Shown piece after piece: positions 8,877-32,812 of a stretch of DNA of 64,000 nucleotides. Source of the DNA: Candidatus Poribacteria bacterium (lineage in GTDB: Bacteria > Poribacteria > WGA-4E > JAJDTR01); assembly GCA_028820655.1 (NCBI GenBank), contig JAPPIK010000025.1, positions 1 to 64,000 of the forward strand, read 5' to 3'. The notes under the pieces were generated by a model. It ran no database searches. It saw only the letters and a program-made list of their open reading frames with translations, and was not told where the DNA came from. Numbering within the stretch: position 1 is the first letter of the stretch; every line of letters starts with the position of its first letter. A program made the position numbers and the translations under genes.

Positions 8877-11441
8877 ATGTACCGCCCAGCCCTCCACGCT
8901 CTTATACCTTACGCATTCGGTATTCTCGTTGGCGGGATTTCCTCTATCCCCTTCTTTTGGATATGGCTGACCGCCCTTGCCTGTCTCGCCGGCTGCTTCG
9001 CGCTGAACAATGTAACGAAACAGAATTTCTCAATCCGACCACTGCCGCCCATCACATACCGATATGTCTTTTTGCAGTTGGCGGTTCTTGCCTGCGGCAT
9101 ACTTTATTCGCAGATACGGCTGACCTCTCCACTTCCTACTGATTTCTTTGATCAGGAGGTCAGGTTCTCGGGACAGACGTTGTACCAGCCGGAACGCGGT
9201 GAATCATGGGATTCCTGCTCCGTTGAGGGACAGATCCACACACAAAACTCTCCTGACCGTGTGGTGAAAGCGAAGCTGTTAGTCCATTTTCGTACACCTG
9301 CCCCACTACACTACGGCGACCATTTGGAACTCCGAGGCACTCTTCGTCGTCCGCAAGGGCAACGAAACCCGGGCGGATTCGACTATCGCTCCTACCTTGC
9401 ACGCCGTCAGGTTTTTGGGATCCTCAAACCGGATCGGGAGCTTGAGATTGCGGTAAGCGGTCAATCCGGTTTCCCGCCTCTGGGTTGGACGGAAAACCTG
9501 CGGCGGCGGGTCGAAAACGTGATTGATTCTGCATATCACCAACACCCGGAACATGTCGAAATCCTTAAGGGGATGCTTCTCGGGAAGCGTGGCGGAATCG
9601 AGGAGACGACCATCGCCGCTTTCCGTAACAGCGGATCGCTGCACATCCTCGCCGTATCGGGGTTGCACGTCGGGTTGATTGCCGGTGTCTTCTTCGTCTG
9701 CTTCTCGCGCCTCCCCACGAAGGCAACCTGTGTTCTGACAATCCTCGCCGTGATCCTCTACGCCTGCGTCGTAGGTTTCCGCCCATCGGTGTTTCGCGCT
9801 TCGACGATGGTGGTTCTTTTTCTGATTGGCTCAATCATCGACCGGGACGTCGATCGTTTCAACCTGCTTGCCGTTGCCGCGCTCATTCTGTTGCTTATTA
9901 ACCCTATGCAACTGTGGGATGTCGGTTTCCAACTCTCATTTGCCGCGGTGGCATCGATCCTTTTCTTCGCTCCCAAGTGGGAGAACTTCGGTAGGGATAT
10001 CCTACCGGATTGGATCCACCAACCCGAAGCACAAGAAAATGCAAGCCTCTTTCGTCACGCGGCGGCAAAAGGGATTCAGTGGCTATATCTAGCATTCGGG
10101 GTCACACTAGCCGCGCAACTTGGCACCGTACTCTTCATTGCCGGATCCTTTTACCGGCTCTATCCATTGGGGATAATTGCGGGACCGTTTGTTGTGGGAC
10201 TTGCGGCGCCAATCGTCAGTCTCACGCTCATCTCCGTGGTTCTCGGCTCAATCTGGCTTCCACTCGCAACTCCGATTGTCTACGCCAACCACGTCATCAT
10301 TTCCGCACTGCTCCAAATTATAGAGTTTTTCGGGAGCCAAGCGTGGAGTGTCGTCAAAACCGCGCCGCCTACTTTTGGTTGGGTTGTCGTCATCTTTGCC
10401 GGATGTATGGCGATGGTTTACTGGCGGTGGGTGTGGCTGGAGAGAAAAAAGGCTTTGCTGATCGGATTGACAGTAGCGGCGATTTGGGTGTGGGATGCCG
10501 CATGGCGGGAAGACGGTAGACTGCTAGAGGTTACATTTCTTGACGTTAGGCAGGGCGACGCAGCGTTCGTGAGATTTCCGGACGGGAAGACCATGCTTAT
10601 CGACGGAGGACGGAGTTTGCTGTTCGCTTACCAAGGACATTACCGGTTCGACACCAAAGACGATAGAAACATGAAATTTCTCGCATTCGACACCGGCGAA
10701 CGAATCCTATCCCCGTTCTTGTGCTACGAAAGCGTTGGAAAATTAGACCTTTTGGTCTTGAGTCATCCCGACAACGATCACGGCGGAGGACTCTACTACA
10801 TTTTGCACGAATTTGACGTGGAAAGGGTGCTCGGTGTGCCACACTTGGATCTGCCGCCGATAACCCACAGGGTGCTACATGAACTCATAGACGAGAAAGG
10901 CATACCGCATGAACTTGGCTACGCGGGGGAAATTGAACTCTCCTCAACCGCGAAACTCGAATTACTGCACCCGCTTGATGAGAGGTCGACAGACTTAAAC
11001 GATGACGACATCAACGACGATTCCCTCGTTCTCAAACTTTCTTACGGAGATGTGGATATCCTTTTCACTGGTGACATTGAACGGCGCGCGGAAGAGAGAT
11101 TGGTCGAGTCGGGAATGAATCTGGAGGCGGAGATTCTCAAGGTGCCGCATCACGGGAGCAAAACTTCTAGCAGCCCAGAATTTCTGGCTTTAGTCCGTCC
11201 GCAATTCGGCATTTTCTCGCTTGGTGCGCGCAATCCCTACAAGTTTCCGCCCAGACAGATTCTGCGGCGTTATCGAAATTTCGGGTGTGAGGTACTCCGT
11301 ACGGATGAACTCGGCGCTATCACGCTGAAAACAGACGGAAGCCGGTGCTGGATTACTCATCACGCAAACCGCAATAAACCGTTATTACTCGACGGAGCGG
11401 GCTTTACGTATTCTTCGCGTAGTATCGGACAATCTCTTTAG
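8877..11441 (+). CDS. comEC: ComEC/Rec2-family DNA internalisation protein
   Basis: 854 residues, full length. ComEC forms the inner-membrane channel for single-stranded DNA during natural transformation. An N-terminal membrane pair with a DUF4131-like periplasmic domain (about 1-190) leads to the Competence domain. That domain carries 'GSLHILAVSGLHVGLI' (about 255-270) and many membrane segments up to about residue 520. The C-terminal metallo-beta-lactamase-like domain has 'LDVRQGDAAF', 'SHPDNDHGGG' and 'KVPHHGSKTSS', the usual ComEC metal-site variants. The coding 3' end overlaps that of the convergent cobA-hemD gene by 38 bases. No other competence genes are present in the window. Confidence 0.93.
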   Translation: MYRPALHALIPYAFGILVGGISSIPFFWIWLTALACLAGCFALNNVTKQNFSIRPLPPITYRYVFLQLAVLACGILYSQIRLTSPLPTDFFDQEVRFSGQTLYQPERGESWDSCSVEGQIHTQNSPDRVVKAKLLVHFRTPAPLHYGDHLELRGTLRRPQGQRNPGGFDYRSYLARRQVFGILKPDRELEIAVSGQSGFPPLGWTENLRRRVENVIDSAYHQHPEHVEILKGMLLGKRGGIEETTIAAFRNSGSLHILAVSGLHVGLIAGVFFVCFSRLPTKATCVLTILAVILYACVVGFRPSVFRASTMVVLFLIGSIIDRDVDRFNLLAVAALILLLINPMQLWDVGFQLSFAAVASILFFAPKWENFGRDILPDWIHQPEAQENASLFRHAAAKGIQWLYLAFGVTLAAQLGTVLFIAGSFYRLYPLGIIAGPFVVGLAAPIVSLTLISVVLGSIWLPLATPIVYANHVIISALLQIIEFFGSQAWSVVKTAPPTFGWVVVIFAGCMAMVYWRWVWLERKKALLIGLTVAAIWVWDAAWREDGRLLEVTFLDVRQGDAAFVRFPDGKTMLIDGGRSLLFAYQGHYRFDTKDDRNMKFLAFDTGERILSPFLCYESVGKLDLLVLSHPDNDHGGGLYYILHEFDVERVLGVPHLDLPPITHRVLHELIDEKGIPHELGYAGEIELSSTAKLELLHPLDERSTDLNDDDINDDSLVLKLSYGDVDILFTGDIERRAEERLVESGMNLEAEILKVPHHGSKTSSSPEFLALVRPQFGIFSLGARNPYKFPPRQILRRYRNFGCEVLRTDELGAITLKTDGSRCWITHHANRNKPLLLDGAGFTYSSRSIGQSL

Positions 11442-12936
11442 CAAGCGCCTCTACCGAGGCTTCGCTTGGCATCACATCAATCTTCAAACCGCATCGTTTG
11501 GCGGCCTCCGCGGTTGACGGCCCAATGACGGCGATTCTTACCTCGGCTAGAAAATCTTTGGGACGATGCCGGTCGAACATTCCAACGAAATTGTCCACCG
11601 TTGACGAGCTTGTGAACGTCACCGCGTCAATCTCGCCGTCGAGGATTTTCTTTTCAAGCGCTTTACGTCCTTTGCCTTCAGTTTTGACGGTATTGTAAAT
11701 CGGAATAGTGTGGACAACCGCTCCCTTTTCACGCAACCCGTTGGGAAAATCTTCCGGAGCAATTTTGGCGCATGGCAACAGGACGTTTTTTCCTACGAGG
11801 TTCTGCATCTCATCCGCGATTGCCACCGCCCGCGATTGTGACGGGACAAAATCCGGGAGGATTCCAATTCCATTCAAGGCTTCGATCGTCTTGGGACCCA
11901 CCGCACAAATCTGCGCTTTCCCGAAAGAACGAACATCCGCGCCATTTTCTCGCAATCGAGAGTAAAATATCTCGACCGCGTTGACACTGGTGAAGATGAT
12001 CCAATGGTATTCACTCAGGCATGTGATAGCCTTGTCTATATCAGGCTTGTCCAATATAGGTTGGATTTCGATGGTGGGAAACTGAATGGTGTGGGCGCCG
12101 TACGATTCGAGAAGTTCCGCGAACCCGCTTGATTGAGCACGTGCCCGTGTGACCACGATGCGCTTCCCGAAGAGCGGTTTCGAATCGTACCAGCGCAACT
12201 GTTCGCGCAGCCGGTTCACCTCGCCGACGACAACGACCGCCGGGTTCCGAAAGTTGGCTTCCTTTGCCTTCTCGGATATGTCGGTAAGCGTCCCTTCGAG
12301 GGTTTTCTGCTGCGGTGTCGTGCCCCAATGGACGAGTGTCACCGGCGTATCGGGGGAGCGTCCGTGCTGCGTCAGTTGGGCAGCAATCTGGTCGAGGTGT
12401 CCGATGCCCATGTAGACCACGAGCGTATCGACAGCCGTCGCCAATCGCTCCCATCCGATCGGTGAATCGGGTGCGAATGATGCCGAATGCCCGGTAACAA
12501 ATGCGACTGACGATGCATGGTCCCGATGGGTGAGCGGAATTCCTGCATATGCCGGCGCCGCGATCGCGGAGGTAATGCCGGGCACAATCTCGAAGTCTAT
12601 CCCCGCCCCGACGAGGGTGAGGACCTCCTCACCGCCGCGCCCAAAAATGAAAGGGTCGCCGCCTTTAAGCCGAACGACTGTCTTTCCCTCCTTGGCTTTT
12701 CGGAGCATGAGAGCGTTAATCTCATCCTGGCGTTTTCGCTGTTCTCCCGGCCGTTTTCCACCGTAGATTCTCTCGCAGTGCGGGGGACAGTGATCCAACA
12801 GAGCATCACTGATGAGCAAGTCATAAATTACGACATCGGCGCATTGGAGGCACTCAACCCCTTTGAGCGTTATTAACTTTGGATCCCCCGGTCCGCCGCC
12901 GACCAGGTAGACCCTTCCGGTTCTCTTTTCACTCAT
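11404..12936 (-). CDS. cobA-hemD: Fused uroporphyrinogen-III C-methyltransferase / uroporphyrinogen-III synthase
   Basis: 510 residues in two domains. Residues about 1-250 are SUMT (CobA), which makes precorrin-2 from uroporphyrinogen III with two SAM. Motifs are 'VYLVGGGPGDPKLITLKG', 'VVRLKGGDPFIFGRGGEE' and 'YAGIPLTHRD'. Residues about 258-505 are HemD, which cyclises hydroxymethylbilane with ring-D inversion. Motifs are 'GKRIVVTRARAQ', 'FTSVNAVEIFYSRL' and 'VTFTSSSTVDNF'. The fusion is common in Firmicutes and other phyla. Its start overlaps the hemC stop by 8 bases, so the two are translationally coupled. The enzyme sits at the branch between haem and sirohaem. Confidence 0.95.
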   Translation of the reverse strand: MSEKRTGRVYLVGGGPGDPKLITLKGVECLQCADVVIYDLLISDALLDHCPPHCERIYGGKRPGEQRKRQDEINALMLRKAKEGKTVVRLKGGDPFIFGRGGEEVLTLVGAGIDFEIVPGITSAIAAPAYAGIPLTHRDHASSVAFVTGHSASFAPDSPIGWERLATAVDTLVVYMGIGHLDQIAAQLTQHGRSPDTPVTLVHWGTTPQQKTLEGTLTDISEKAKEANFRNPAVVVVGEVNRLREQLRWYDSKPLFGKRIVVTRARAQSSGFAELLESYGAHTIQFPTIEIQPILDKPDIDKAITCLSEYHWIIFTSVNAVEIFYSRLRENGADVRSFGKAQICAVGPKTIEALNGIGILPDFVPSQSRAVAIADEMQNLVGKNVLLPCAKIAPEDFPNGLREKGAVVHTIPIYNTVKTEGKGRKALEKKILDGEIDAVTFTSSSTVDNFVGMFDRHRPKDFLAEVRIAVIGPSTAEAAKRCGLKIDVMPSEASVEALAKEIVRYYAKNT

Positions 12937-13881: not shown

Positions 13882-14805
13882 TCAATCTGAATCCGACTCG
13901 TGTAAAAATCGCAACTGTCTTGTTTCAGTTTCCAATCGTTGGACTGCATCTTCATAGTAGGACGCATTTATCTCGAAACCGATAAATCTTCGATTCAAGT
14001 TTTGGCATGCGATTGCCGTCGTGCCACTTCCTATGAAAGGATCTAACACAACCTGATTCTCAATCGTGGTAAGCCTAATTAGGTATTCCATGAGTGCAAT
14101 AGGTTTTTGCGCCTCATGTAATCGGTTTTCATCGGAGCGAAAATCAAGCTCTAAAACGTTAGTAGGGCTTTTTCCATCAATGAGGCATTCTGAGACGTTC
14201 ATTCCTCCAACCTCGTTTTCGACGATATTGTCGGTAATGGTGCGCTCATACGGCTTAAACAACCATGCAATCGGTTCGTAGATTGGTGCAAGATTGCCAA
14301 TTCGCCAGCCTTTCCATTTTTCAGCGAGCGCTTTTTCGTCTCTTCTGGCCAAGACGATTTCCAATCGCTGACTTCGATGGTGTGCCGAATCTTTTTTCCA
14401 AATGAGAATATCACGCAGCAAAAAACCTGTGTCTTCAAGTGCAACAATTGCTCTGTGAATCGTTCGACGTCCGCCGAACACGAATAAGCTCGCCCCCTTT
14501 ATCATCAGAGGGTAAACCAGCTTTGCCCAGTTTCCACACCACTCTTGATAATCTTTAACAATATTTCTATCGGCAGCGTTCCACCCTTGAATTGGTTTTC
14601 CTCTCCTCTTGAAACCACTCTTTCCCCTTTGTGCCGGAGACTGTCCCAGATAGGCAGAATTTGTGTTCTTGTGAAAAACATCCCAATCATCTAATCCTAT
14701 GCCGTAAGGTATATCGGACAGAAAGAGATGCACAGACTCCGGTGGGATTTTGGGGAGCCAATCAATACAATCGCCTTGGATGATTCTATCAAGAATAGTA
14801 TCCAT
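13882..14805 (-). CDS. DNA adenine methyltransferase of a HindIII-like restriction-modification system
   Basis: 307 residues from the ATG at 14805; a TTG one codon earlier is also possible. It is a beta-class amino methyltransferase: catalytic motif IV comes first ('SDIPYG', near residue 31; the family more often has DPPY) and the SAM-binding motif 'DPFIGSGTTAIA' lies near the C-terminus. It probably makes N6-methyladenine at the site cut by its neighbour. Its start lies within 10 bases of the upstream restriction gene's stop. The pair is inserted in the haem operon between hemA and hemC. Specificity for AAGCTT is inferred from the partner, not from this sequence. Confidence 0.85.
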   Translation of the reverse strand: MDTILDRIIQGDCIDWLPKIPPESVHLFLSDIPYGIGLDDWDVFHKNTNSAYLGQSPAQRGKSGFKRRGKPIQGWNAADRNIVKDYQEWCGNWAKLVYPLMIKGASLFVFGGRRTIHRAIVALEDTGFLLRDILIWKKDSAHHRSQRLEIVLARRDEKALAEKWKGWRIGNLAPIYEPIAWLFKPYERTITDNIVENEVGGMNVSECLIDGKSPTNVLELDFRSDENRLHEAQKPIALMEYLIRLTTIENQVVLDPFIGSGTTAIACQNLNRRFIGFEINASYYEDAVQRLETETRQLRFLHESDSD

Positions 14806-14811
14806 CAAATT

Positions 14812-15651
14812 TTATGGTTGAACAATGTCAATCGCTTTTTTAATAGTCAGGATTTTATTTTCAACCTTTTCGGCTTTAATAAGCCTGGCTACAGCCTCTT
14901 TTTGAGATAATTTTCTATATTCCGCGATTCGTGCTTCCCAGTAATCAATGCCTTCTTTGCCGAGTTGCTTGACTGTACCTACAGCCTTCTGTTTATAACC
15001 GCTGAGTGTCTCCTCGTTTTTCCCTGCAATTTGGCATACTGTTTTGTCAATAGCTTCCCAATACTGTTGGGCGCTTTTGCTAGTTGGCAACCCATTGCCT
15101 ATACGCCAAAGGGGATCGAGATTCTGTCCATTAATATAGTCAAGTAGGAATTTTAAGTGGATGTAGGAAAACAGTGTGACATTTCGTCCAATTGCTTGCT
15201 CGTAGATTTGGCTACCTCGCCGAGGATATTGATAAAGTGGTGACACAAGACAGGCGAATGTATTACTTTTACGCCAATCATCTAGTGCCTGCACTTTGAA
15301 ATCCTTTTGATTTTTCGCCGACCGACTCAGACGGAATGCTTTAGCGTCACCAACAATACTGTAATTGCGAGTCCTCCCGAAAACATCAGCAGAATCACCT
15401 CTTGCTCTTAAAACCTCCGCGGGAATAGACAAGTGTGTAAATGTCAGTGCCAACAGAATGTCACAATATTTGGCCCATAGCTTTTCCTCAGATGAGTCGT
15501 GTCCAAATAACTCCGGTATGATTCCACATTCCAAAAGATTTGAACTCAATTCGTCCTTTGTGATTCTTGCGAATTCCCTCTCTAAAATATCGAAAGCGTC
15601 TTCCAATCTAGCAATTTCGAAAACCAAGGCAATCACGTCCGTTCGCTTCAT
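14812..15651 (-). CDS. HindIII-family type II restriction endonuclease
   Basis: 279 residues, near the length of HindIII (about 300). The middle part closely resembles HindIII as I remember it: 'VGDAKAFRLSRSAKNQKDF' corresponds to its catalytic core. The PD-(D/E)xK residues would be Asp89, Asp102 and Lys104. 'YQYPRRGSQIYEQA' also matches the family. It probably cuts AAGCTT. At least eight AAGCTT sites can be read in the window (for example 1114, 19102, 22059, 33826), so the host would need the adjacent methylase. The stop of hemA is 5 bases upstream of this start, so it is likely transcribed from the haem operon. Confidence 0.85.
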   Translation of the reverse strand: MKRTDVIALVFEIARLEDAFDILEREFARITKDELSSNLLECGIIPELFGHDSSEEKLWAKYCDILLALTFTHLSIPAEVLRARGDSADVFGRTRNYSIVGDAKAFRLSRSAKNQKDFKVQALDDWRKSNTFACLVSPLYQYPRRGSQIYEQAIGRNVTLFSYIHLKFLLDYINGQNLDPLWRIGNGLPTSKSAQQYWEAIDKTVCQIAGKNEETLSGYKQKAVGTVKQLGKEGIDYWEARIAEYRKLSQKEAVARLIKAEKVENKILTIKKAIDIVQP

Positions 15652-16974: not shown

Positions 16975-17787
16975 TCAGAAAGCGTGTATACTGGGCAGAA
17001 ACAGATTGACTCCGGCGTAGGTGCACAAGATCGCCGCGAAACCGATAATTGCCGAATAAGCGGCTTTACGACCGCGCCAACCCAAAGCTTGACGGATGCC
17101 TATCTGTATGACATATATCAACCATGTGGCGAGGGTGAATATGATTTTCGAATCGAGCCATCTCCATTCGAGTTCCCGTGCGTATTTCGTCCATACCGCG
17201 CCTATGATGATCCCCAGTGTTAGCAGTATGACTCCCACCACCATACATCTGTGCCCGATTTCGTCCGATGAGCCAAGCGAAGGAAAGTGATCATGGATTA
17301 GCGTTTGCGCTTTCCGGCGAATCTTCTTCTCCTCGATCAGATACATGACTCCAAAACCGAACGCAGCGATGAATGCCGCGTAGGACAGGAAAATCAATGT
17401 AGTATGCGAAAGCAGCCAGTAATTCTGCAAATTCGCGGGCAGTCCCGGTGCATCTTGCGGAAGTGCATAGGCAATCAGGATAGCGGCGAATGCGGCCGGA
17501 ACAACGAATACACCCAACGCGCGCATGCGCGTCATGTAGGCTATGCCCAGATAGATAAGGATTATCGCCCACGCGAGGAAGGAGATGGAGTCGAGCCAGT
17601 GCGCCATTGGAAACCGACCTTGGCCAATCCAACGGAGGGCGATTAAAATCGTGTGCAGTGCAAACCCCATCGTAGTCGCCCAAAAAGCTCCCTCGGAGAT
17701 TCTACTAATCCCCGTGGTGAGAAACAGGGCGTGAAGTATGCTCGCCGCCAGATATATCAAGAGGGTCAATAAGAACAAAAATTCCAT
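16975..17787 (-). CDS. ccsA: Cytochrome c assembly (CcsA/HemX-like) membrane protein
   Basis: 270 residues from the ATG at 17787. About eight hydrophobic segments are seen, starting with 'FLFLLTLLIYLAASILHALF'. Family features include 'HWLDSISFLAWAIILIY' and 'WLLSHTTLIFLSYAAF', whose His is a likely haem ligand. 'WTKYARELEWRWLDSKIIFT' replaces the full WWD tryptophan-rich motif, as in HemX-type members. CcsA handles haem for cytochrome c maturation, while HemX beside hemA lowers GluTR levels in Bacillus. The position next to hemA favours HemX, but the sequence does not separate the two. Confidence 0.85.
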   Translation of the reverse strand: MEFLFLLTLLIYLAASILHALFLTTGISRISEGAFWATTMGFALHTILIALRWIGQGRFPMAHWLDSISFLAWAIILIYLGIAYMTRMRALGVFVVPAAFAAILIAYALPQDAPGLPANLQNYWLLSHTTLIFLSYAAFIAAFGFGVMYLIEEKKIRRKAQTLIHDHFPSLGSSDEIGHRCMVVGVILLTLGIIIGAVWTKYARELEWRWLDSKIIFTLATWLIYVIQIGIRQALGWRGRKAAYSAIIGFAAILCTYAGVNLFLPSIHAF

Positions 17788-17805
17788 CACAAGGCCATTC
17801 CTGAT

Positions 17806-19035
17806 TCATGATACATGCCTGTACATCCCAGGCGCTTCCGTTACGGATGAATCATGTGATTTCTCGTTTTCAATTCGTTCAAGTGCGTATTTTCGAGCAC
17901 GTTGAATCCGACCATGTCGAATCATGTTGAATACACATTCAGTCGAACAATCGGAGTTCACAAAGCCGAGACAACATTTTTCCGGTTTTTCCGCCGTTGT
18001 ACTCGATTCAGCACCCGGTATATCGTCAATCAACGCCTCGAAAAATCTTTGCCGCCCGCGTTGTGTAGGGATTTCTTCAAGTACGACCGGGCGTAAAGAT
18101 CCCAGAAAACCGATAAACGCTCCGTATCCGGAGTTTTCAAATTGGGCGAGAAGTTCCGCATGGATATTCCCGGCCGCATTTTGTTCAACCGGATTTTCGC
18201 TTTGAGTCGAGACACCGATAATCAAGTCCTCATCCACTACCAACTCCGGCGTAACGAACTCTCCGGTTTGCGGGTCGTCAAGGAATTCGCGAGGCTGTAA
18301 CGCATCTTTCGCGAAAACCGCAGCTTCACAACCCGTCTCCGCGAATAGGAGAAATGCATCGGATACCCTTGCCGAATCGACCTGCGAGGCCGTCAACGGT
18401 GTGATAGAAGAGCCGCATCCTTCCAACAGTGACACGCGGCGTTTCATCTCTTGGCTCGTCTGTGCAGAAGTGCAAATTAGACCACATTCCCGATCCTGCA
18501 GTAGCAGATAGGCCGGATACGGCAATTGCCGATTTTCGACGGGAACCGGTCGTGTCTCTGCGGATTCATCCGCGTATAGAGACGATGCGCCGAATCGTGA
18601 TTCAAGATACTCCCGAATCCGTCTCGACATGGCGGGGCTTAGCCCGCTTGTCGAGACACTTATGCTCACACCTCCGCATACCACCACCGACGCAGCAGCA
18701 AAGGTGCACTCGGGAATCACATCTACGACATTGACCAGACGAATACCGTTCTTTTCATAGGCATCCTCAAACACGGATGAATTTATCTCTGGCAAATCAG
18801 TCGCGGCGCATGCAAGAAACATCCCATCCGTGTCACCTGATTGAAATTGACGGTTGTGCCAGACGATTTGACCTACCTGCGCCAAGAATTCCAGATACGT
18901 CGTCGTATGAGGACTGATTAGCGTTACTATCCCTCCGCTCAACAGAAGAGAAACTACCTTACGCTCGGCGACCGCGCCACCGCCGACAACAAGGCATTTT
19001 CGATTTTGAAGGTTAAAATGGGCGGGGTAGAACAT
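17806..19035 (-). CDS. Precorrin-2 dehydrogenase / sirohydrochlorin ferrochelatase with tandem degenerate second domain
   Basis: 409 residues from the ATG at 19035; the frame is open to a GTG at 19086. Residues 1-150 are a typical SirC/CysG-N half: 'VVGGGAVAERKVVSLL' for NAD+, catalytic Asp105 in 'NVVDVIPECTFAAASV', then 'ISVSTSGLSPAMSRRIREYL'. Residues about 173-340 repeat the pattern. 'YPAYLLLQDRECGLICTS' parallels 'YPAHFNLQNRKCLVVGGG', and 'FLDDPQTGEFVTPELV' parallels the Asp105 region. 'LIIGVSTQSENP' and the C-terminal helices 'YGAFIGFLGSLRP' follow. The glycine motif is lost in the second half and the helical domain is present only once. Family enzymes are homodimers, so this may be a single-chain dimer. 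It supplies sirohaem for NirA. Confidence 0.85.
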   Translation of the reverse strand: MFYPAHFNLQNRKCLVVGGGAVAERKVVSLLLSGGIVTLISPHTTTYLEFLAQVGQIVWHNRQFQSGDTDGMFLACAATDLPEINSSVFEDAYEKNGIRLVNVVDVIPECTFAAASVVVCGGVSISVSTSGLSPAMSRRIREYLESRFGASSLYADESAETRPVPVENRQLPYPAYLLLQDRECGLICTSAQTSQEMKRRVSLLEGCGSSITPLTASQVDSARVSDAFLLFAETGCEAAVFAKDALQPREFLDDPQTGEFVTPELVVDEDLIIGVSTQSENPVEQNAAGNIHAELLAQFENSGYGAFIGFLGSLRPVVLEEIPTQRGRQRFFEALIDDIPGAESSTTAEKPEKCCLGFVNSDCSTECVFNMIRHGRIQRARKYALERIENEKSHDSSVTEAPGMYRHVS

Positions 19036-19140
19036 GACATGGCACACGATGGGCAAGTTGCGACGAGTTTGAAAATCCGACAACACTTAACCGTATTTAA
19101 GAAGCTTGAGCATCCCCTGGCGTGAATGCGGCTTGAAACT

Positions 19141-20127
19141 TTACCACTCTCTTGATGCTCCAAAATCGGCAAGATGCCCCAGTGCCTCCTTGGCGGGAGA
19201 CTCAGGAAGCGCCGTCAATGCAGACTTTGCGCGATCAGCGTATTCCCGCGCAATACAACGGCAGTGAGGCTGTATTTCATATCGAAGAAGCAGGGATTCA
19301 ATCCACTCAATTGATTCTTCCTCGTCGACTTTGGAATTAAAGATTAGCTCTAACTGTCTACTTTCCTCCGTTGTACACACGCCTCGCAGGTGGATTATGG
19401 GATACGTCAACTTGCCCTCGCGAAGATCATTAAAGGGTTCCTTCCCAAATTTTTCCTCGTCAGCCTCAAAATCGAGCAAATCGTCAATAATTTGAAATGC
19501 CGCGCCGACGGCTTTTCCGTATTCCGTCACGCCTTGGATAATCTTCTCCTCACGCGTTCCTATGATCGCACCCATAGCGCACGACGCGGTAATCAATTCT
19601 CCAGTCTTCAGGTTTATGATTTTTAGGTAGTCGTCCGTCGAGATGTCGAAATCCCCGCTTTTATAGGCGTGAATGACTTCTCCTTCACACATGGCCTGCG
19701 TCGTCCGAGCAAGTATTGCCATGGCGGGATCTTCGGCATGCCGATCCACCAACATTGAGAGCACACGAGCATGCAAGTAATCGCCTACAAGCACCGCGAC
19801 TTTGTTTCCCCATTTTGAATGCAGAGTTTCTCGTCCACGACGGCGGGGTGCCTCATCAAGAACATCATCATGCACAAGGGAGGCAACGTGAATCAATTCA
19901 ACAACCGCCGCAAGTGTATGCGCGTCCTCGCCTTCGTGACCGCAAGCCTTGGCAGAGAGCAACAGCAGGATCGGGCGTAACCGTTTGCCGCCTCCTTGCA
20001 CAACGTGTTGAACAGCGCTGTCCACAAAATCGTATTGACTCGCACTCTTTTCACTTAGTTTTTTCTCGACCGCTGCAAGGTCTACGGAGATGGGTTCACA
20101 AATACTATCAAGGCTAGGGGCTGACAT
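19141..20127 (-). CDS. ispB: Trans-polyprenyl diphosphate synthase (octaprenyl/heptaprenyl type)
   Basis: 328 residues, all-alpha prenyltransferase. It condenses isopentenyl diphosphate with an allylic diphosphate to make the quinone side chain. Both aspartate-rich motifs are present: 'LVHDDVLDEAPRRRG' (near 88-102) and 'QIIDDLLDFEADEEKFGK' (near 215-232). 'GGGKRLRPILLLLSAKA' binds diphosphate. The residues that set chain length cannot be judged by eye, so the exact product (C35-C45) is open. Its place between hemL and the precorrin-2 dehydrogenase links quinone and haem supply in one respiratory operon under Rex. Confidence 0.92.
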   Translation of the reverse strand: MSAPSLDSICEPISVDLAAVEKKLSEKSASQYDFVDSAVQHVVQGGGKRLRPILLLLSAKACGHEGEDAHTLAAVVELIHVASLVHDDVLDEAPRRRGRETLHSKWGNKVAVLVGDYLHARVLSMLVDRHAEDPAMAILARTTQAMCEGEVIHAYKSGDFDISTDDYLKIINLKTGELITASCAMGAIIGTREEKIIQGVTEYGKAVGAAFQIIDDLLDFEADEEKFGKEPFNDLREGKLTYPIIHLRGVCTTEESRQLELIFNSKVDEEESIEWIESLLLRYEIQPHCRCIAREYADRAKSALTALPESPAKEALGHLADFGASREW

Positions 20128-20233
20128 CAGGTTTCTTCCCGTGTCCGGAGGGGCATCTTCCCTCCTTCGGATCCTATTCGGTCTAGGGGCTTCGGTGCTT
20201 CAACTTGGATACCGAAATTAGCGACCTTTTCGG

Positions 20234-21517
20234 CTATAGCGCAGATAACGCTTCATTCGCGGCTCGCACGGTAGCATCTATGTCCGCCTCGGAGTGCGCC
20301 AGTGACACAAAGCCCGCCTCAAATTGGGATGGAGCAACGTAGATCCCTCTCTTCAGCAACTCCCCAAAATATCGGCTATACAGTTCTGTATCCGATGCGC
20401 GTGCGCCAGCGGCATCGGTAACCTCGGAGTCAGTAAAGAACAACATAAGCATTGAACCGATTCGACTATGGAATGCATCAATGCCGTGACGATTTGTTGC
20501 ATCTCGAAGTCCGTCCGCCAGTAGGCTTGCCCTGCTTTCAAGTTGCTCGTACACACCCGGTTCGGCGAGGGCATTAAGTGCCGCAAGCCCAGCCGCCATC
20601 GCCAGCGGATTTCCGGATAACGTGCCAGCTTGGTAGACCCCGCCTTCCGGGGCGATGTGCCGCATAATCTCCGCTTTTCCACCATACGCTCCGACAGGCA
20701 TACCACCGCCGATGATCTTGCCCAAGCAGGTCATATCAGGGATAACGCCGTATAGTGACTGTACGCCCCCATAGGCTACTCGGAAACCGGTAATCACCTC
20801 GTCAAAGATGAGCACGATTCCGTGTTCGGAGGTAATTTCCCGAAGTTCACTCAAGTATCCATCCCGCGGAGGAATGATCCCCATATTCCCCATAATGGGT
20901 TCAAGAATGAGGCACGCAATCTGATCCGGGTGAGCTTCAATCGCCTGGCGTACCGCATTCGCATCATTAAACGGCACAACTAAGGTGTGTCTTGTAAAGT
21001 CAGCCGGAATCCCTTCGCACTCCGGGAGACCGAACGTTGCGACGCCCGATCCGGCCTCCGCGAGGAGCGAATCAACGTGGCCATGATAGCACCCTTCGAT
21101 TTTGATTACCTTGTCGCGTCCCGTATATCCCCGAGCCAATCGAATAGCACTCATCGTCGCCTCTGTTCCGGAGCTGACCATTCGCACCTTCTCTATGGAC
21201 GGAACGGCATCAACAATGATTTCAGCCAGTTCCGTCTCCCGCGTCGTAGGGGCACCGAAACTGGTACCATTGACCATCGCCGCGTTGATGGCTTCTATGA
21301 CACGTGAATCAGCATGACCCAAAATGAGGGGGCCCCACGATGCGACATAATCAATATATTGGTTCCCGTCAATATCGAGGAGCTTCGAGCCCGACCCGCG
21401 CTGAATAAAGCGGGGGTTGCCGCCGACCTTGCTGAAATTGCGTACCGGACTATTCACTCCACCAGGAATGAATTGTTGCGATTTGCCCCACGCTTCAAGT
21501 GAATTGGCGTTGTTCAA
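20234..21517 (-). CDS. hemL: Glutamate-1-semialdehyde 2,1-aminomutase
   Basis: About 427 residues. It isomerises glutamate-1-semialdehyde to 5-aminolevulinate with PLP, following HemA. It shows 'FIPGGVNSPVRNF', 'MVSSGTEATMSAIRLARG', 'LIFDEVITGFRVA' and 'CLGKIIGGGMPVGAYGG', whose Lys binds PLP. No ATG lies before the conserved start. The TTG at 21517 has GAGG eight bases upstream and is preferred; another TTG is at 21532. It is followed by about 100 bases and then ispB. Confidence 0.95.
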   Translation of the reverse strand: MNNANSLEAWGKSQQFIPGGVNSPVRNFSKVGGNPRFIQRGSGSKLLDIDGNQYIDYVASWGPLILGHADSRVIEAINAAMVNGTSFGAPTTRETELAEIIVDAVPSIEKVRMVSSGTEATMSAIRLARGYTGRDKVIKIEGCYHGHVDSLLAEAGSGVATFGLPECEGIPADFTRHTLVVPFNDANAVRQAIEAHPDQIACLILEPIMGNMGIIPPRDGYLSELREITSEHGIVLIFDEVITGFRVAYGGVQSLYGVIPDMTCLGKIIGGGMPVGAYGGKAEIMRHIAPEGGVYQAGTLSGNPLAMAAGLAALNALAEPGVYEQLESRASLLADGLRDATNRHGIDAFHSRIGSMLMLFFTDSEVTDAAGARASDTELYSRYFGELLKRGIYVAPSQFEAGFVSLAHSEADIDATVRAANEALSAL

Positions 21518-21774
21518 AATATCTTTCCTCAATTGATCTGCTATACTCTACACTGTTGAAGGTTCGTTTCTTTTAAAGTCAAGAAATGGAGCGTGAATTT
21601 TGCAGGGAGTAGGAGGGAATTTCGATTCCCGACCATGGCGATTCGGAGAAGATCTCTATCGCACTCACTCTTCATTCGCTTGATCTCCTACAAACCTTTG
21701 GTGCGCAATTGCGCAATATTAGCCGATGCCGAGTATAGGTATGTCGAACTGTTTCAGTAATACTGCGACACTCG
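21518..21774. repeat. Spacer between hemL and hemB with a dispersed repeat copy
   Basis: 257 bases between two genes of the haem operon. Positions about 21640-21690 carry a copy of the 'CTATCGCACTCACTCTTCATTCGCTTGATC' family. No terminator hairpin with a T-run is seen, so transcription may continue through it. Confidence 0.5.
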
Positions 21775-22752
21775 TCATTCTTCAAGCCATTCAACAACCG
21801 ATTTGGCGAAGTATGTCAGAATCATATCCGCTCCCGCGCGTTTTATGCTCGTGAGCACCTCAAGAGCGACGCTTTTCTCGTCTATCCACCCCTGTTGGGC
21901 AGCGGCTTTAATCATTGCATATTCTCCGCTGACATTGTACGCCGCTACCGGCATCTCAAATTTTTGCTTCACGCGTCGAATTATGTCAAGATAGGAGAGC
22001 GCCGGTTTAACCATCACGATATCGGCTCCCTCCTCAATATCCAATGCAACTTCTCGTAAAGCTTCTTCCGCGTTAGGCGGATCCATTTGATAAGACCGGC
22101 GGTCACCGAATTGCGGCGTTGATTCCGCCGCTTCCCGAAACGGTCCGTAGAAAGCGGAGGCGTATTTCGCAGAGTACGCCATGATGGGAATACTTTCGAA
22201 ACCGTTTTCGTCCAGAGTTGCTCGAATTGTCCCCACACGTCCGTCCATCATGTCGGAAGGGGCAATGACATCCGCGCCTGCGCGGGCATGGGACAAGCTT
22301 TCTTTGGCCAGTAGCTCCAAGGTTCGATCGTTCAGTACCTCCCCGTCACGGATCACCCCGCAATGTCCATGGTCGGTATATTCGCACAGACATACGTCGG
22401 TAATGACAAGCAACTCGGGAACCACATCCTTGAGCGCCTTGACCGCCTGTTGTATAATTCCATCGTCTGCATATGCCTCCGACCCTACGGCGTCTTTGAA
22501 TTCGGGTATGCCAAAGAGAATTGTCGCCGGTATGCCGTGCGCCACCAAATCCCTAGCGGCTACGATGAGGCGATCCACCGAATACTGATAGCACCCGGGC
22601 ATGGATGAAATCTCAATAGCGACATCGTGCCCGTGCACGACGAACATCGGATAGATAAAGTCGCTTGCCGAAATCGTCGTTTCCCGAATGAGCCGACGCA
22701 GGTTTTCACCGGCGCGGAGCCGTCTGGGGCGAGAATTGGGGAAATGACCCAT
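21775..22752 (-). CDS. hemB: Delta-aminolevulinic acid dehydratase (porphobilinogen synthase)
   Basis: 325 residues. It condenses two 5-aminolevulinates to porphobilinogen. It has the three-cysteine zinc site of Zn-dependent enzymes: Cys121, Cys123 and Cys131 in '[14 protein letters not shown]'. Two Schiff-base lysines lie in '[16 protein letters not shown]' and '[12 protein letters not shown]'. '[16 protein letters not shown]' is also diagnostic. It is the second gene of the rex-led operon. Confidence 0.97.
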
Positions 22753-22869
22753 GGCTACTCCCGAACGAGGTTTGACTATGTTTTTAAAACCGACGGCCTC
22801 GAACGCAAACTTTCCGGTACGGTTCGCGAATCTTCGAATTGAGAATACGACTTCCGATTAAAGAAATGC

Positions 22870-23520
22870 TCAAACTTCGTGTTCCAAAAAATAAGAAAGC
22901 CCTTCAAGCTCTATGGATAAATCAACATTCCGCAATTGAACGTTGCGAGGAGTGGCAAGACGGGCAGGGGCGAAATTGAGTACAGCGCGAATACCGGACG
23001 AAACAAGCAGATTCAGTGCCTTCTGTGCGCCCTGGACAGGAACCGCGATAATCCCGATTTCTATCTGTTGTGCCTTTACGGTTTCGGTAAGTTCCTCAGG
23101 CTTTTGAATCAGGACATTGTTTATCTCTTGGGACCATTTCTGCGGGTCGCTGTCGAACGCCGCCACGATTTCAAAATTGTGGTCGCGCAATACACGATAA
23201 CCGAGCAATGCACTGCCCAAATTTCCCACACCGACGAGGGCAACTTTACGGCGAAGATGGACACCGAGAATCTTGTCGATGGCACGTTTCAAGTCGGAGA
23301 TTTGGTAACCGATGCCGCGTTTTCCGAACTGACCGAAACAGGCGAGGTCTCTCCGAATTTGGGTCGCGGTAAACTGCATCCGGTCCGATAGCTCTTTTGA
23401 GGAAGTAACGGTTAAACCTTCCGCTTCCAACAGTGCGAGGAGTCGAGAATATAAGGAGAGACGGTTAACTGTTCCTTCAGAGACCGCTTCAGGATTGTTG
23501 GTTAGCCCGCGTGCTTGCAT
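22870..23520 (-). CDS. rex: Redox-sensing transcriptional repressor Rex
   Basis: 216 residues. Rex senses the NADH/NAD+ ratio: NADH binding releases it from DNA and derepresses respiratory genes. An N-terminal winged helix (about 15-85, with 'VTSSKELSDRMQFTATQIRR') is followed by 'FGQFGKRGIGYQI' and a Rossmann domain with 'VALVGVGNLGSALLGY' (near 94-109). A C-terminal domain-swap helix completes it. It heads the minus-strand haem operon, about 120 bases upstream of hemB. In Streptomyces, rex also lies with hem genes, so control of haem supply is plausible. No perfect TTGTGAA-type Rex operator was found immediately upstream. Confidence 0.95.
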   Translation of the reverse strand: MQARGLTNNPEAVSEGTVNRLSLYSRLLALLEAEGLTVTSSKELSDRMQFTATQIRRDLACFGQFGKRGIGYQISDLKRAIDKILGVHLRRKVALVGVGNLGSALLGYRVLRDHNFEIVAAFDSDPQKWSQEINNVLIQKPEELTETVKAQQIEIGIIAVPVQGAQKALNLLVSSGIRAVLNFAPARLATPRNVQLRNVDLSIELEGLSYFLEHEV

Positions 23521-24732: not shown

Positions 24733-26163
24733 CTACATGAAGAATCGGAACTGATACGGTCTTCGTCGGAGGCTAGGCATTCGCTTGAACACGCGTGCGA
24801 GTACCTTTGCATAACTCATGGTGACGGGCAAGGAGTCATAAACTGAATCATTATTCCAGTTCATCTTGGAGAGTCCTAGTACGGCTCGTGCTGTATCGTC
24901 CCATGAACCGTGGCCGGCATGACGTACCAAACGTAGTGGGTGTGGAGTGCTCCTTGAACCCTTAAAATAAGAACCTTTTTCACTAATGTCGCGTACGTCA
25001 CCGTGCGTCCAAAGTAGGGCGTCTCGTGGCCCAAGTGGAAGGACGGTGCCACGTGAAACGGGGAACGCCGCGGGATTTCCCCTTTTGGCCTTACCAAGGG
25101 GCCGATCAATTCGTACCCCTCTCCATCCCACATCTTCAACTATTTGCACTAGGTCGACAGCTTCGCACAAATGAAATGCCTCCATACAACCTTCGATTTC
25201 GTTGCGTTTAAACTCCGTGTTTTTATGCACCATCACACGACTGGGTGACTGCCCGGCATGGCGACGACGATAGAGGTCGATAGACCGAGTCATCACGCGA
25301 AACATGTCAACTCGTGACAGAAAGGGATTGTCTCGCTGCACTTCAACATCATGGGCATCATATGCAACGAACTCTAAGCCGGCTCCCTCCGCGTCAAACA
25401 CCTGGCTACAGCATGTGACGAAACGCGGTTTATCGGAGTCCGTCGTACGAACGGCATATGAAATTCCGATGTACGCCATTTCTGGGTCGGTCGCCGCCAA
25501 TTTCCACGGGATCCCGCCAGCCTTGACATAGAGTGCTAAGCCGAAACGCCACATAACGCTCGCCTGACAACGATATGACAGGGCACCATCTTCCCGCACC
25601 ATTTGAATAGGTAATCCCATCGCGGCAGTTGTAGCCTTCAGGTGATCGTGAAGATCGAAGTCTTCATCAGGCGCGCCGGTGTAGGCGTAAGCCCATCGCC
25701 TAGGAATGTATACGACTACGAGATCGAACTCGCTCCGGTGAGCTTGTAAACGGTTGATAGCTCGCACAAGTTCCTCAGCGAGCACCAAATGCGGGGTTGA
25801 CGATCCCCTTACCTTAGTTTCTACCTCTGAGCTTAGCTTGATGTGGCAGTAATGACTTGCTTCTCGCACATACACACCAAACACACTGTGAAAACCGGGC
25901 CATTCTGGCAAATAGTCGCTGCGTTCCTTAGGGCTGTATTTGGCTTCAAGGCGATCCGTAAATGCGCGAAGGTCATTACTATTTCCTGCGGGAGCGACGG
26001 TAGCCACTCGAATCGGATCGAGCACCAAACTGGTAGAGTGCGGACCGAAGTTTATCAACCCACGAAGCGGGTGAATGTCCGAATCTGCTGCACGATCCGG
26101 GTGAAACGCAAGTTTCGGTTCGTGTAAGCTTTGGTGCATGGCGATCTGATTTGGATTGTTCAT
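24733..26163 (-). CDS. Short prokaryotic Argonaute (MID-PIWI)
   Basis: 476 residues, the size of short pAgos that lack N and PAZ domains. MID-like sequence near 145-200 includes 'DLHDHLKATTAAMGLPIQMV', suited to 5'-phosphate binding. It is followed by the family hallmark 'WRFGLALYVKAGGIPWKL' (about 205-222) and a PIWI-like C-terminus starting 'YIGISYAVRT'. The first catalytic Asp of nicking Argonautes is replaced (GIS), as expected for short pAgos, which do not cut. It overlaps the SIR2-APAZ stop by ATGA, so the two are coupled. In characterised SPARSA systems this protein uses guide RNA to detect invader DNA and activate its partner. Confidence 0.88.
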   Translation of the reverse strand: MNNPNQIAMHQSLHEPKLAFHPDRAADSDIHPLRGLINFGPHSTSLVLDPIRVATVAPAGNSNDLRAFTDRLEAKYSPKERSDYLPEWPGFHSVFGVYVREASHYCHIKLSSEVETKVRGSSTPHLVLAEELVRAINRLQAHRSEFDLVVVYIPRRWAYAYTGAPDEDFDLHDHLKATTAAMGLPIQMVREDGALSYRCQASVMWRFGLALYVKAGGIPWKLAATDPEMAYIGISYAVRTTDSDKPRFVTCCSQVFDAEGAGLEFVAYDAHDVEVQRDNPFLSRVDMFRVMTRSIDLYRRRHAGQSPSRVMVHKNTEFKRNEIEGCMEAFHLCEAVDLVQIVEDVGWRGVRIDRPLGKAKRGNPAAFPVSRGTVLPLGPRDALLWTHGDVRDISEKGSYFKGSRSTPHPLRLVRHAGHGSWDDTARAVLGLSKMNWNNDSVYDSLPVTMSYAKVLARVFKRMPSLRRRPYQFRFFM

Positions 26164-27914
26164 GATTTTGTTCTCCGAGAAAAGGCCGTAGGGAGTAAAA
26201 GACGAAAGACCGCGTCAAGTCCGTCATCTATCCCTAACGCACAAATATCGCCTTCGTCCCCTGCCAAGTGTTGAGTCCAGAAGTGTATCAGGGCATTAAG
26301 TTCTCTATTGTAACGTTTGACAGTGCGCTCGCGGGAAAAGTCAGCGGCGACAGTTTTAAGTTCATCAGTGATCCCATCAAACACAATTCGAGGATCGATC
26401 AAAACCCACAAACGATCATCTGCCCAATCAAGACGGATGCTGACTCCTTCTCTCCACGTTAGTTGTTGATGTTTACCGACTTTCCCCATAATCGCTCCAG
26501 TAAGTTGCCTCAAGGGTTGCCAAATGTGCGCTCCTGGATTGGCGGGCGCCAGCAAGTCTGTGTTGCGTCGGTGACCTACAAGTTCCAATCTGCATTCACG
26601 AACAATCGCAGAGGTCAACGCCTCTCGTAGAAGACCTCTCTCAACAGAGTCATATCTATGCCGCTTGGTCTCGAGTGTATGAACGCCGAAATCCTTGATT
26701 CCATACTTGAGAAAGGCGTTTTCTATATCGTCGTCAGACCCGAAAGCCAATACACCAGCACGGGTGCGGGTAGCAATTATATTAGCGTCAGCTTCCGTGA
26801 TTGCGGCGCGTACGTCAGCAATTCCACCAACTTCACATACAATGCGCCTGCAAACAGGCGGCACGGAGGCAACACGTAAAGCATTAAGACGCACAACGGG
26901 CCATCCGGGGTTACCGGTTAGCGGAGGTACATCACTCCGCCATCGTCGTTCCTTAGCGAACTCATCGAGCTCTTTAGCATCAATGTCCTTGGCAAGTCGC
27001 ATTAGGTCGCGCAGTATTTCGTCAAAGTTGTCGATTGGCACGAGTGCCGCGTCAATATTATACTCTCGCGCTTTATGCAACAATTCACAGACACGAGGTA
27101 TTGGTAGAGTGTCGCCACAATACAACCAGAAAAGCCCATGGGGGAAGGCATCCGGGAGTTTCGCTGCATCTTCAAGAGCATTCATCACTGAGTTATCACG
27201 ACCGCTATAGCCAACCACGACAAGTCCAGATTGCGTACATGAATCAATGAGCGCCTTTCGGAGGGTCTCATCCTGCCGACGCAGTTCCTCAGAGGTGTTT
27301 TTGAGTCTTCGCGAACGAAAGTCACCGTGCAGCTTAACTTCAATAGGCCATTGCTCATTAGCAATAGCTGGTGTTGCTAAATGTGATGAATCGAGGTCCA
27401 CAGTCGTCAAAGAGCCGGTAGTATCGTAAATGCGCACACAAGCATCGGCCAACAGCGGGTCGAAGTTTGTTGTCCACACAATGCGGACAAGCGCTGCGCG
27501 CATAAGAGTAGCCAACGCCAAGTGCCCGTACGATGGCTTCCCACCAGCAATCGTGGCGTTGATATACGTACCACGATCTGCTTCAGATGGATACACTTTT
27601 TCAAATAGCGCCGCATACTCATCAGTTGCGCCAAATTCGGGCATGTTTTGCAAAGAATCGATATGAGTTTGTAGTTTAGCCTGAACAGCTGGATTCGACA
27701 GGTCTGCCAAGGATTTACGTGATACCTTTTGCTGGCTCACGTACAGCTCCCGCTTGAACTCCCATACCATATCAGCGGCAGTAGGTAGACCAGCGGAGGC
27801 TGATGCACCAGCGCCAAGAAACCACATAAGTTGTGGCGCGCGTAACGAAAAGCGACGTGCGAAATCGTCCGGTTCTATTCGGGGCGGATTGTTCTCGCGA
27901 TTATGTTCTTCCAT
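26160..27914 (-). CDS. SIR2-APAZ effector of a short-Argonaute (SPARSA-type) defence system
   Basis: 584 residues from the ATG at 27914; a longer frame opens with TTG at 28001. The N-terminal SIR2 domain has 'MWFLGAGASASAGLPTAADM' (NAD+ binding, about 30-49), Asn150 in 'WTTNFD' and His196 in 'VKLHGDF' as likely catalytic residues, and 'LVVVGYSGRDNSVM'. The C-terminal ~230 residues match in position the APAZ region that stands in for the missing N-PAZ half of Argonaute. In known SPARSA systems, target recognition by the complex triggers NAD+ depletion and cell death, which limits phage or plasmid. It lies 150 bases downstream of hsdR on the same strand. The function is assigned by family and gene order. 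Confidence 0.87.
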   Translation of the reverse strand: MEEHNRENNPPRIEPDDFARRFSLRAPQLMWFLGAGASASAGLPTAADMVWEFKRELYVSQQKVSRKSLADLSNPAVQAKLQTHIDSLQNMPEFGATDEYAALFEKVYPSEADRGTYINATIAGGKPSYGHLALATLMRAALVRIVWTTNFDPLLADACVRIYDTTGSLTTVDLDSSHLATPAIANEQWPIEVKLHGDFRSRRLKNTSEELRRQDETLRKALIDSCTQSGLVVVGYSGRDNSVMNALEDAAKLPDAFPHGLFWLYCGDTLPIPRVCELLHKAREYNIDAALVPIDNFDEILRDLMRLAKDIDAKELDEFAKERRWRSDVPPLTGNPGWPVVRLNALRVASVPPVCRRIVCEVGGIADVRAAITEADANIIATRTRAGVLAFGSDDDIENAFLKYGIKDFGVHTLETKRHRYDSVERGLLREALTSAIVRECRLELVGHRRNTDLLAPANPGAHIWQPLRQLTGAIMGKVGKHQQLTWREGVSIRLDWADDRLWVLIDPRIVFDGITDELKTVAADFSRERTVKRYNRELNALIHFWTQHLAGDEGDICALGIDDGLDAVFRLLLPTAFSRRTKS

Positions 27915-28065
27915 GAAATGTTTTGTTGGATTTTGTTTCACATGAACGCTAACGAAATTCCGTTCAGTTTTGTTCCGATGCTCTAAACCATGATTCGCCA
28001 AAATACAATCTCATTGATGAATGTTTCATTTCTGATTTGGTTTTATTAGTAAATCATGCAGGCGT

Positions 28066-31000: not shown

Positions 31001-31266
31001 GTTGACTCCGCCGCGCTTACTTGACTGATTTCACGAATAGCGTTTTCGTAGGCTTCGGACGGCAGGTCGGGATTGTAGGTTTCAAGTGCATCGTGGAGAT
31101 AACGAGTTAGAATGACCTCACTGTCGTCCGCGCGCCCGAGCATTCCATCTGGCCCAAAGGTCTCGTTGTTGTGGGCGTAGACTGATTCCCAACCGAGGTC
31201 ATGTTCCAGATAGTCAGCAGTGGTTTGTTGAACGAGGTTGTCTTCTGTGTAAGATGAATCGTTCAT
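28066..31266 (-). CDS. hsdR: Type I restriction enzyme, R subunit
   Basis: 1066 residues, full length. The N-terminal endonuclease domain carries 'DIVGFVNGIPLLFMELKN' (about residues 155-175), the PD-(D/E)xK-type core. The two RecA-like translocase domains follow, with Walker A 'GAGKSYSMVFF', 'DEAHRTQYG' and 'AFTGTPLMKD'. A C-terminal helical domain binds the MTase core. With HsdM and HsdS it translocates and cuts unmodified DNA far from the recognition site. It is the last of the three hsd genes, 136 bases after hsdS. No frameshift is seen. Confidence 0.96.
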   Translation of the reverse strand: MNDSSYTEDNLVQQTTADYLEHDLGWESVYAHNNETFGPDGMLGRADDSEVILTRYLHDALETYNPDLPSEAYENAIREISQVSAAESTLQTNLEKYNLLRNGVKVSYRDPNTLMETRTLRVFDFDDVENNHFLAVRELWIKRLPYRRRADIVGFVNGIPLLFMELKNIHLNIRRACDENLADYKDTVPHIFHHNAFVVLGNGVDARIGSFSAPFELFREWKRLDEDEVGIVEMETLLKGVCTKSNFLDLFENFILFDESGGPMSKIVAQNQQYLGVNRAIRSLEDRRGFGGKLGVFWHTQGAGKSYSMVFFSQKVHRKLGGNFTFLVLCDRDDLDTQIYRTYAGCRIVGEHEDVRPKDGKHLKRLLGEHKAYVFSLIQKFNQEVIPGKPYSDRKDIIVIVDEAHRTQYGSLAVNLRNALPKALYIAFTGTPLMKDDEITRKVFGDYVSRYGFQRAVEDGATVPLYYDARGEELGVATNELNEKIAEKLEELEITDVDVEQRLERELRHEYHIITAPERLDAIAKDFVRHYSTAWENGKAMFVAIDKITAVKMHALITKYWEERISVLESELTALSDEDDRLALEQQCNWMKTTQIAVVVSEEQGEVGKFRRWDLDIRQHRKLIKEGFETDDGQRIDVESAFKRDDHPFRVAIVCAMWLTGFDVKSLATLYLDKPLKSHTLMQAIARANRVHKGKNNGLIVDYCGILKNLRSALATFAGHTGIEDDDTPNLPAKPQEELFEELHEATGMVRDFLAAEGFRLEDIYEKRGFERNAAIMAAKEVINENDETRKRFEIMARGMFRKYKACLTLPDINDYRITYGAINIIYKSLAEDREQADISHIIMELHAVVGEIIEVTDPGGLAETQRLYDISAIDFERLRQEFAASPKKNTHLQNLKTAIEKRLAVMLAQNPLRTNFQQHYEQLVARYNEEKDEIIIQQTFEALLKLVADLDDEQDRAIREGLDEETLALFDLLKKDNLTPDDIKRIKAVAVDLHAKINAEMERIRDWESKYATRDAMKQNIYDYLYDETTGLPDSYSNDEIEQKSDMVYVHILHQYQHRAALAAR

Positions 31267-31402
31267 GGGTCAACGTAAATCTTCCCTACGGTAATGATTC
31301 CAAAACTGTACAGTGTGGGTCGGAGCCGCAAAGTGCCGGGGCACGTGATGTTATTCCGAAGGCCCTGGCCGTGGGCGCGAAGATTAGAAGCAAGTTGCAG
31401 AG

Positions 31403-32539: not shown

Positions 32540-32812
32540 CGCATAACCGCCGAAATAATTAGTGAATTAATCGTGTTTGAACAAGAACTCTACAGAAAGC
32601 TTCTTACGCCGAGGCTTGGAACACACGCGTAGTTGGCCTTGTTGGTATTTGCTATTGGTTTGCTAATATGGACGCTATTCTGAAGCCGCTGAGAATACCA
32701 TGCTCGCTGTTTACTAATACTTCTTATCAATCCGAATAAACTGTCTTTTCAAAGAAGTGCGTAATGACATGTTGCGACTCGTCTGCCAGGTTCTTTGGAT
32801 GACAAGGCAAAG

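Follow-up and report, generated by a model that had tools for sequence, protein, structure and literature searches.

The window analysed here is a 64,000 bp stretch from a member of the Poribacteria, a sponge-associated bacterial phylum, and it includes a haem operon in which a gene for a tandem SirC protein is found. The features relevant to this gene are as follows.

16975–23520, minus strand: conserved operon context made up of a ccsA-like gene, the tandem SirC gene, an ispA-like prenyl synthase gene, hemL, hemB and rex
17806–19035, minus strand: whole gene for the tandem SirC-SirC protein (P0001), 409 aa, stop codon included
18586–19035, minus strand: half 1, residues 1–150, intact NAD-binding Rossmann fold with dimerisation strands and helix
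18958–18984, minus strand: GGGAVAERK, residues 18–26, dinucleotide loop; K26 corresponds to CysG K27 and is Lys in 45/45 proteins
18721–18723, minus strand: D105, corresponding to CysG D104, Asp in 45/45
18523–18585, minus strand: linker between the halves, residues 151–171, with no invariant residue
18136–18522, minus strand: half 2, residues 172–300, NAD-less Rossmann-like fold with dimerisation strands and helix
18016–18135, minus strand: helical domain of half 2, residues 301–340, CysG_dimeriser
17860–17976, minus strand: cysteine module and last helices, residues 354–392 (C354 C355 x7 C363 x3 C367 xFN)
11404–12936, minus strand: cobA-hemD fusion, assigned by sequence and operon context, in the same operon as the tandem SirC gene
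45940–47529, plus strand: NirA-type nitrite/sulfite reductase gene (NIR_SIR)

The tandem SirC reading frame is intact, with 409 codons running from an ATG at 19035 on the minus strand to a stop codon at 17806–17808, and the protein begins MFYPAH. The names of the operon genes are based on sequence recognition, and the gene order is conserved in relatives, with hemB-hemL-ispA-SirC-ccsA-hemA-hemC-cobA/hemD retained in most of the Poribacteria order that carries the tandem form (hereafter the tandem order). The product of cobA-hemD, which we take to be a uroporphyrinogen methyltransferase, would supply precorrin-2, the substrate of the tandem SirC, and the NirA-type reductase is a likely user of sirohaem. 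In two sister genomes, a single SirC is flanked by the same hemL-ispA neighbours and, hence, the change from single to tandem form most likely occurred in place.

Inside the hem operon, between hemA and hemC, lies a Type II restriction-modification pair at 13882–15651 (MTase_II, 7e-117, and REase_II, 2e-62, in PADLOC); among the relatives checked a pair in this position was seen only at locus L058, and it is not in G001 (locus L054) from the same genus. Directly behind rex, at 24733–28001, a short prokaryotic Argonaute (pAgo_I, 7e-194) beside a SIR2-type partner (Aga_SIR2, 1e-180) makes up a SPARSA-like pair. Genes recognised from their sequences as resembling those for subunits of Type I restriction systems and then a gene for a 1191 aa protein, the N-terminal part of which matches Dsr1, occupy 28066–39325 and, together with the Argonaute pair, constitute a defence island of approximately 15 kb.

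The initial annotation of this gene had noted the SirC/CysG-N pattern repeated in order over residues of about 1–150 and 173–340, and the 409-residue protein is confirmed to consist of two SirC/CysG-N folds in tandem. Residues 1–150 match NAD_binding_7 (PF13241, 4e-25), Sirohm_synth_M and TIGR01470 cysG_Nterm, the last with a score above the curated cut-off. When residues 173–409 were scanned alone, matches to NF007922 CysG from NCBIfam (E=1.7e-8), TIGR01470 (3.7e-5) and Pfam CysG_dimeriser (PF10414; 6.9e-5 and 23.0 bits, the curated cut-off being 23) were obtained. Profile comparison aligned the two halves in register (probability 97.5 %, E=6e-12), and an end-to-end alignment of half 2, first strand through last helix, was obtained with the sister-order single SirCs (99.2 %, E=2e-19). 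When the half-2 profile was compared to all PDB sequences, CysG was found at 1e-6 and the sole other match (E=0.85) was at chance level. AlphaFold modelling of the whole protein as one chain, using 45 sequences in the alignment, gave pLDDT 85 and pTM 0.82. The strands and helices follow in the same order in both halves, though half 2 is one strand shorter, and both the model and the alignment of 45 proteins place the helical domain only after half 2, as first noted for the C-terminal helices. Half 2 modelled alone gave pLDDT 75 and pTM 0.51, and every one of the 28 PDB matches of the half-2 model at E≤0.001 is a CysG or a SirC. The self-alignment is significant, residues 173–409 are not something unrelated, and half 2 is clearly homologous to CysG/SirC; an unrelated fold for half 2 is ruled out by the profile comparisons, the PDB profile search and the PDB matches of its model. 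Half 2 evolves faster, with a mean pairwise identity of 0.48–0.64 compared to 0.75 for half 1.

Of the 73 genomes of one Poribacteria order, 70 encode both halves, across four families and including single-contig chromosomes, and the same architecture thus recurs in other genomes with haem operons. Outside this order, but in the same class, a single SirC of 205–241 aa was found in six genomes and a SirC-HemA fusion in one. As the tandem form is found in so many genomes and at the operon position of the single SirC of sister orders, it is old and conserved, and not the product of decay in one strain. The GTDB scan was made with a pattern specific to the tandem-order clade, so its result applies to that clade. 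A search of plasmids did not find the tandem form, and a search of the open-access literature found no paper on sirohaem synthesis in Poribacteria or on a tandem SirC. In the 15 tandem-order genomes tested, there is no second SirC elsewhere in the genome; other weak TIGR01470 matches in genomes of the order were either half 2 itself or neighbouring frames of 433–476 aa, which were taken as HemA. In a tree, the half-1 sequences and the half-2 sequences each form one clade (support 99/99 and 100/100, respectively), the latter on a very long branch of 2.5 changes per site. This topology is consistent with a single origin of the tandem form followed by a long half-2 branch, and the source of half 2 may have been either half 1 itself or a related SirC.

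The most divergent tandem protein (L039:6501-7769 in G009) shares only about 37–39 % identity. No NIR_SIR enzyme was found in G009, which is 80 % complete, and selection is possibly relaxed there. In G062, from a sister order, SirC is fused to the glutamyl-tRNA reductase HemA (L046:4921-6600).

CysG and Met8p are domain-swapped dimers. The residues of the tandem protein were examined with columns mapped to CysG and counts taken over 45 tandem proteins. The glycines of the GGGxVAERK motif are retained in half 1 (45/45, 38/45 with Ala in the other seven, and 45/45) and have gone from half 2 (2/45, 0/45 and 0/45), as the initial annotation had observed for the GGGxVAxRK glycines of the second copy. 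Half 1 also includes the equivalents of CysG K27, N101, D104, P133 and R140 in all 45 proteins (K26, N102, D105, P134 and R141 in its own numbering), R137 in 43/45, and S128 as Thr in 45/45. The K27, N101, D104 and P133 columns of half 2 contain R, E, D/N/other and D/G/other, with Asp in only 27/45 at D104 and Pro in 2/45 at P133, and the remaining substrate columns on the Rossmann side contain H/Q/other and K/E/other. The Glu at the N101 column (residue 250; 18286–18288) is present in 45/45 half-2 sequences, an invariant replacement at a dead site. Conservation in half 2 is highest in the helical domain, where the hinge glycine G312 and also R315 and R328, corresponding to CysG G159, R162 and R175, are each found in 45/45, with Phe in 44/45 at the W179 column. 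None of these four columns exists in half 1, which ends earlier.

In CysG, a site combines the Rossmann domain of one subunit with the helical domain of its partner, and tetrapyrrole has been seen in only one site per dimer in any structure (PMC7018833). Each tandem chain has a single complete set of site residues and, hence, the plan of a homodimer with two equivalent sites is not found here. From the residue pattern, the losses in the two halves appear to correspond to both components of one second site, with the other composite site complete. This is what would be expected if the fused chain folds like the old dimer and needs only one site.

The tandem protein is, in our view, likely to be a CysG-B/Met8p/SirC family member that has become a single-chain pseudo-dimer with one remaining composite site. 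The ancestor of this Poribacteria order would have had a SirC gene in its haem operon, and duplication of that gene with fusion of the copies would have given rise to the tandem form. In the ancestral domain-swapped homodimer, every site would have paired the Rossmann fold of one chain with a helical domain donated by its partner. After fusion, one such site would have stayed complete, with its Rossmann fold in half 1 and its helical domain in half 2, and the second would have lost its two components, namely the NAD site in half 2 and, in half 1, the helical domain. The anatomy and the model confidence suggest that the halves pair within one chain as the chains of CysG pair in its dimer. Judging from the residues kept, the remaining site would rely on D105 for the NAD+-dependent oxidation of precorrin-2 to sirohydrochlorin, and it probably also inserts iron, producing sirohaem for the nitrite and sulfite reductases. 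The duplication and fusion originally proposed, with one NAD site kept and a degenerate second half nevertheless retained, is thus supported and is fixed across the order. The suggestion that the second half was retained for structure or for substrate channelling fares less well. It is indeed retained, but a merely structural part does not fit, since half 2 carries the sole helical domain with its invariant equivalents of R162 and R175, a domain that in CysG comes from the partner chain and walls the tetrapyrrole site on its other side. No evidence was found for channelling, and one composite site for dehydrogenation and probable iron insertion explains more, because the order is without a separate sirohydrochlorin chelatase.

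Single-SirC bacteria rely on SirB/CbiX as a separate chelatase. A search for CbiX covered 85 genomes of the phylum Poribacteria, and none was found in the 73 tandem-order genomes once a weak match in G023 (23 bits), located at the HemH gene, had been set aside. CbiX is present in 8/10 genomes from other orders of the class, though the link between the tandem form and CbiX loss represents one evolutionary event rather than many independent ones. No CbiK was detected in the 15 tandem-order genomes tested, and 14 of 15 include sirohaem-type reductases. Because no separate chelatase was found, iron insertion by the tandem protein is on balance probable.

HemH is found in 14/15 tandem-order genomes and was not found in the tested genomes of a sister group (f7). 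AhbA/B genes are absent from the tandem order and AhbA/B-type genes are present in the f7 genomes. The Ahb route is a sirohaem-dependent haem route, and the stand-alone CbiX together with the AhbA/B-type genes point to such a route in f7. CobD/CbiB, a B12 gene, was not found in the f7 genomes, and this, with the AhbA/B-type genes there, makes a sirohaem role for their CbiX likelier than one in vitamin B12 synthesis; the CbiX of G062, G063 and G070, which do include CobD/CbiB, may serve B12. Short stand-alone CbiX genes were seen in three f7 genomes, L103 (G069), L101 (G067) and L102 (G066), and the AhbA/B-type pairs of f7 are apparently fused in one frame of 307–387 aa. In the tandem order, production of haem by another route may have lowered the demand for sirohaem, in keeping with the disappearance of CbiX and of one active site.

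A less probable reading, though one to be taken seriously, is that the tandem protein is a dehydrogenase only and stops at sirohydrochlorin, with iron inserted by HemH or an undescribed chelatase. The distribution of HemH would suit this, and a monofunctional SirC is likely to be ancestral, as in the sister orders with CbiX. In addition, P106 and K166 of CysG are not conserved: the column of the flip-loop proline P106 is I in 43/45 (overall I/V/A) in half 1, the DAPK-type loop being DVIP or similar with an invariant P108 one place further on, and the K166 column is L/M. However, HemH is the classical haem enzyme and, with no AhbA/B in the order, has its own job. D105, N102, K26, R141 and P134 are also invariant, and CysG D104 is required for both dehydrogenation and chelation, its mutation abolishing both activities (PMC7018833). 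Some single SirCs from genomes with CbiX likewise have Asp at the D104 position and, hence, D105 alone is no proof of chelatase activity.

A feature not noted initially is an insert in the second copy with four cysteines, C354, C355, C363 and C367, each in 45/45 proteins, located after the dimeriser helices and before the last helix. This CC-x7-C-x3-C module is an insert relative to the single SirCs, which have none there, and the spacing suits a predicted metal or Fe-S site, so it may bind iron or an Fe-S cluster. We suggest, tentatively and as a rather speculative extension, that the one-site chain absorbed the ferrochelatase step and gained this iron or Fe-S module, combining oxidation, iron receipt and sirohaem formation, and that such an enzyme arose in a HemH lineage beside sister orders with the Ahb haem route.

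It is unlikely that intermolecular dimers persist, with half 1 paired with half 2 of another chain or with another half 1, and the fusion structurally neutral. The single-chain model is compatible with such dimers, but the pTM of the whole chain compared to that of half 2 alone suggests intrachain packing of half 2 on half 1, and a pair of half 1s would be without a helical domain to close the site. Still less probable is a half 2 that lies outside catalysis as a regulatory or iron-sensing domain, with the cysteine module controlling the enzyme via an Fe-S cluster or metal. The four invariant cysteines in an insert absent from single SirCs, and the faster evolution of half 2, would be in keeping with this, but the helical domain is its best conserved part, two residues that bind sirohydrochlorin from the other-chain side in CysG are invariant, and half 1 alone would have no wall for the tetrapyrrole site. 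An assembly artefact or recent decay, with one genome carrying a pseudogene-like duplicate, would explain the missing NAD motif but is ruled out: the architecture is encoded in an uninterrupted frame in 70/73 genomes, including single-contig chromosomes such as G012, G015, G041 and G048, and half 2 has invariant residues.

As a single-chain pseudo-dimer, the tandem protein would be a variation on a known family, with its fold and catalytic residues but not its quaternary plan. CysG-B of Salmonella and E. coli (PDB 1PJQ, 6P5X) has the fold common to both halves and shares the equivalents of K27, N101, D104, P133, R137, R140, R162 and R175, a domain-swapped site built from two copies and, as proposed here, class III (dehydrogenase/chelatase) chemistry. 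However, CysG has two separate identical chains and two sites, has no cysteine module, retains the P106 and K166 that the tandem protein does not, and has its CysG-B part fused to a methyltransferase, whereas half 1 is fused to a second CysG-B-like half. Yeast Met8p (PDB 1KYQ) likewise has no methyltransferase domain, has an acidic residue at the D104 position and is a dehydrogenase/ferrochelatase, as proposed for the tandem protein, but is a homodimer of single-length chains. SirC of Bacillus megaterium (PDB 3DFZ), a precorrin-2 dehydrogenase, and the sister-order SirCs represent the ancestor by operon position and fold; they are of single length with a separate SirB/CbiX chelatase, and the sister SirCs are without the cysteine insert. 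In the SirC-HemA protein of G062, which is likewise encoded in a haem operon, a SirC-type domain also has a fusion partner, but this is glutamyl-tRNA reductase and not a second SirC.

The tandem protein would represent a clear case of complementary degeneration after the fusion of a domain-swapped dimer, and would fill an apparent gap, as the order has sirohaem enzymes without any known chelatase for sirohydrochlorin. As evolution has apparently kept one composite site, each half could be mutated singly in one chain without hybrid dimers, and it becomes testable whether one site is enough for both reactions and what the helical domain contributes from the other half.
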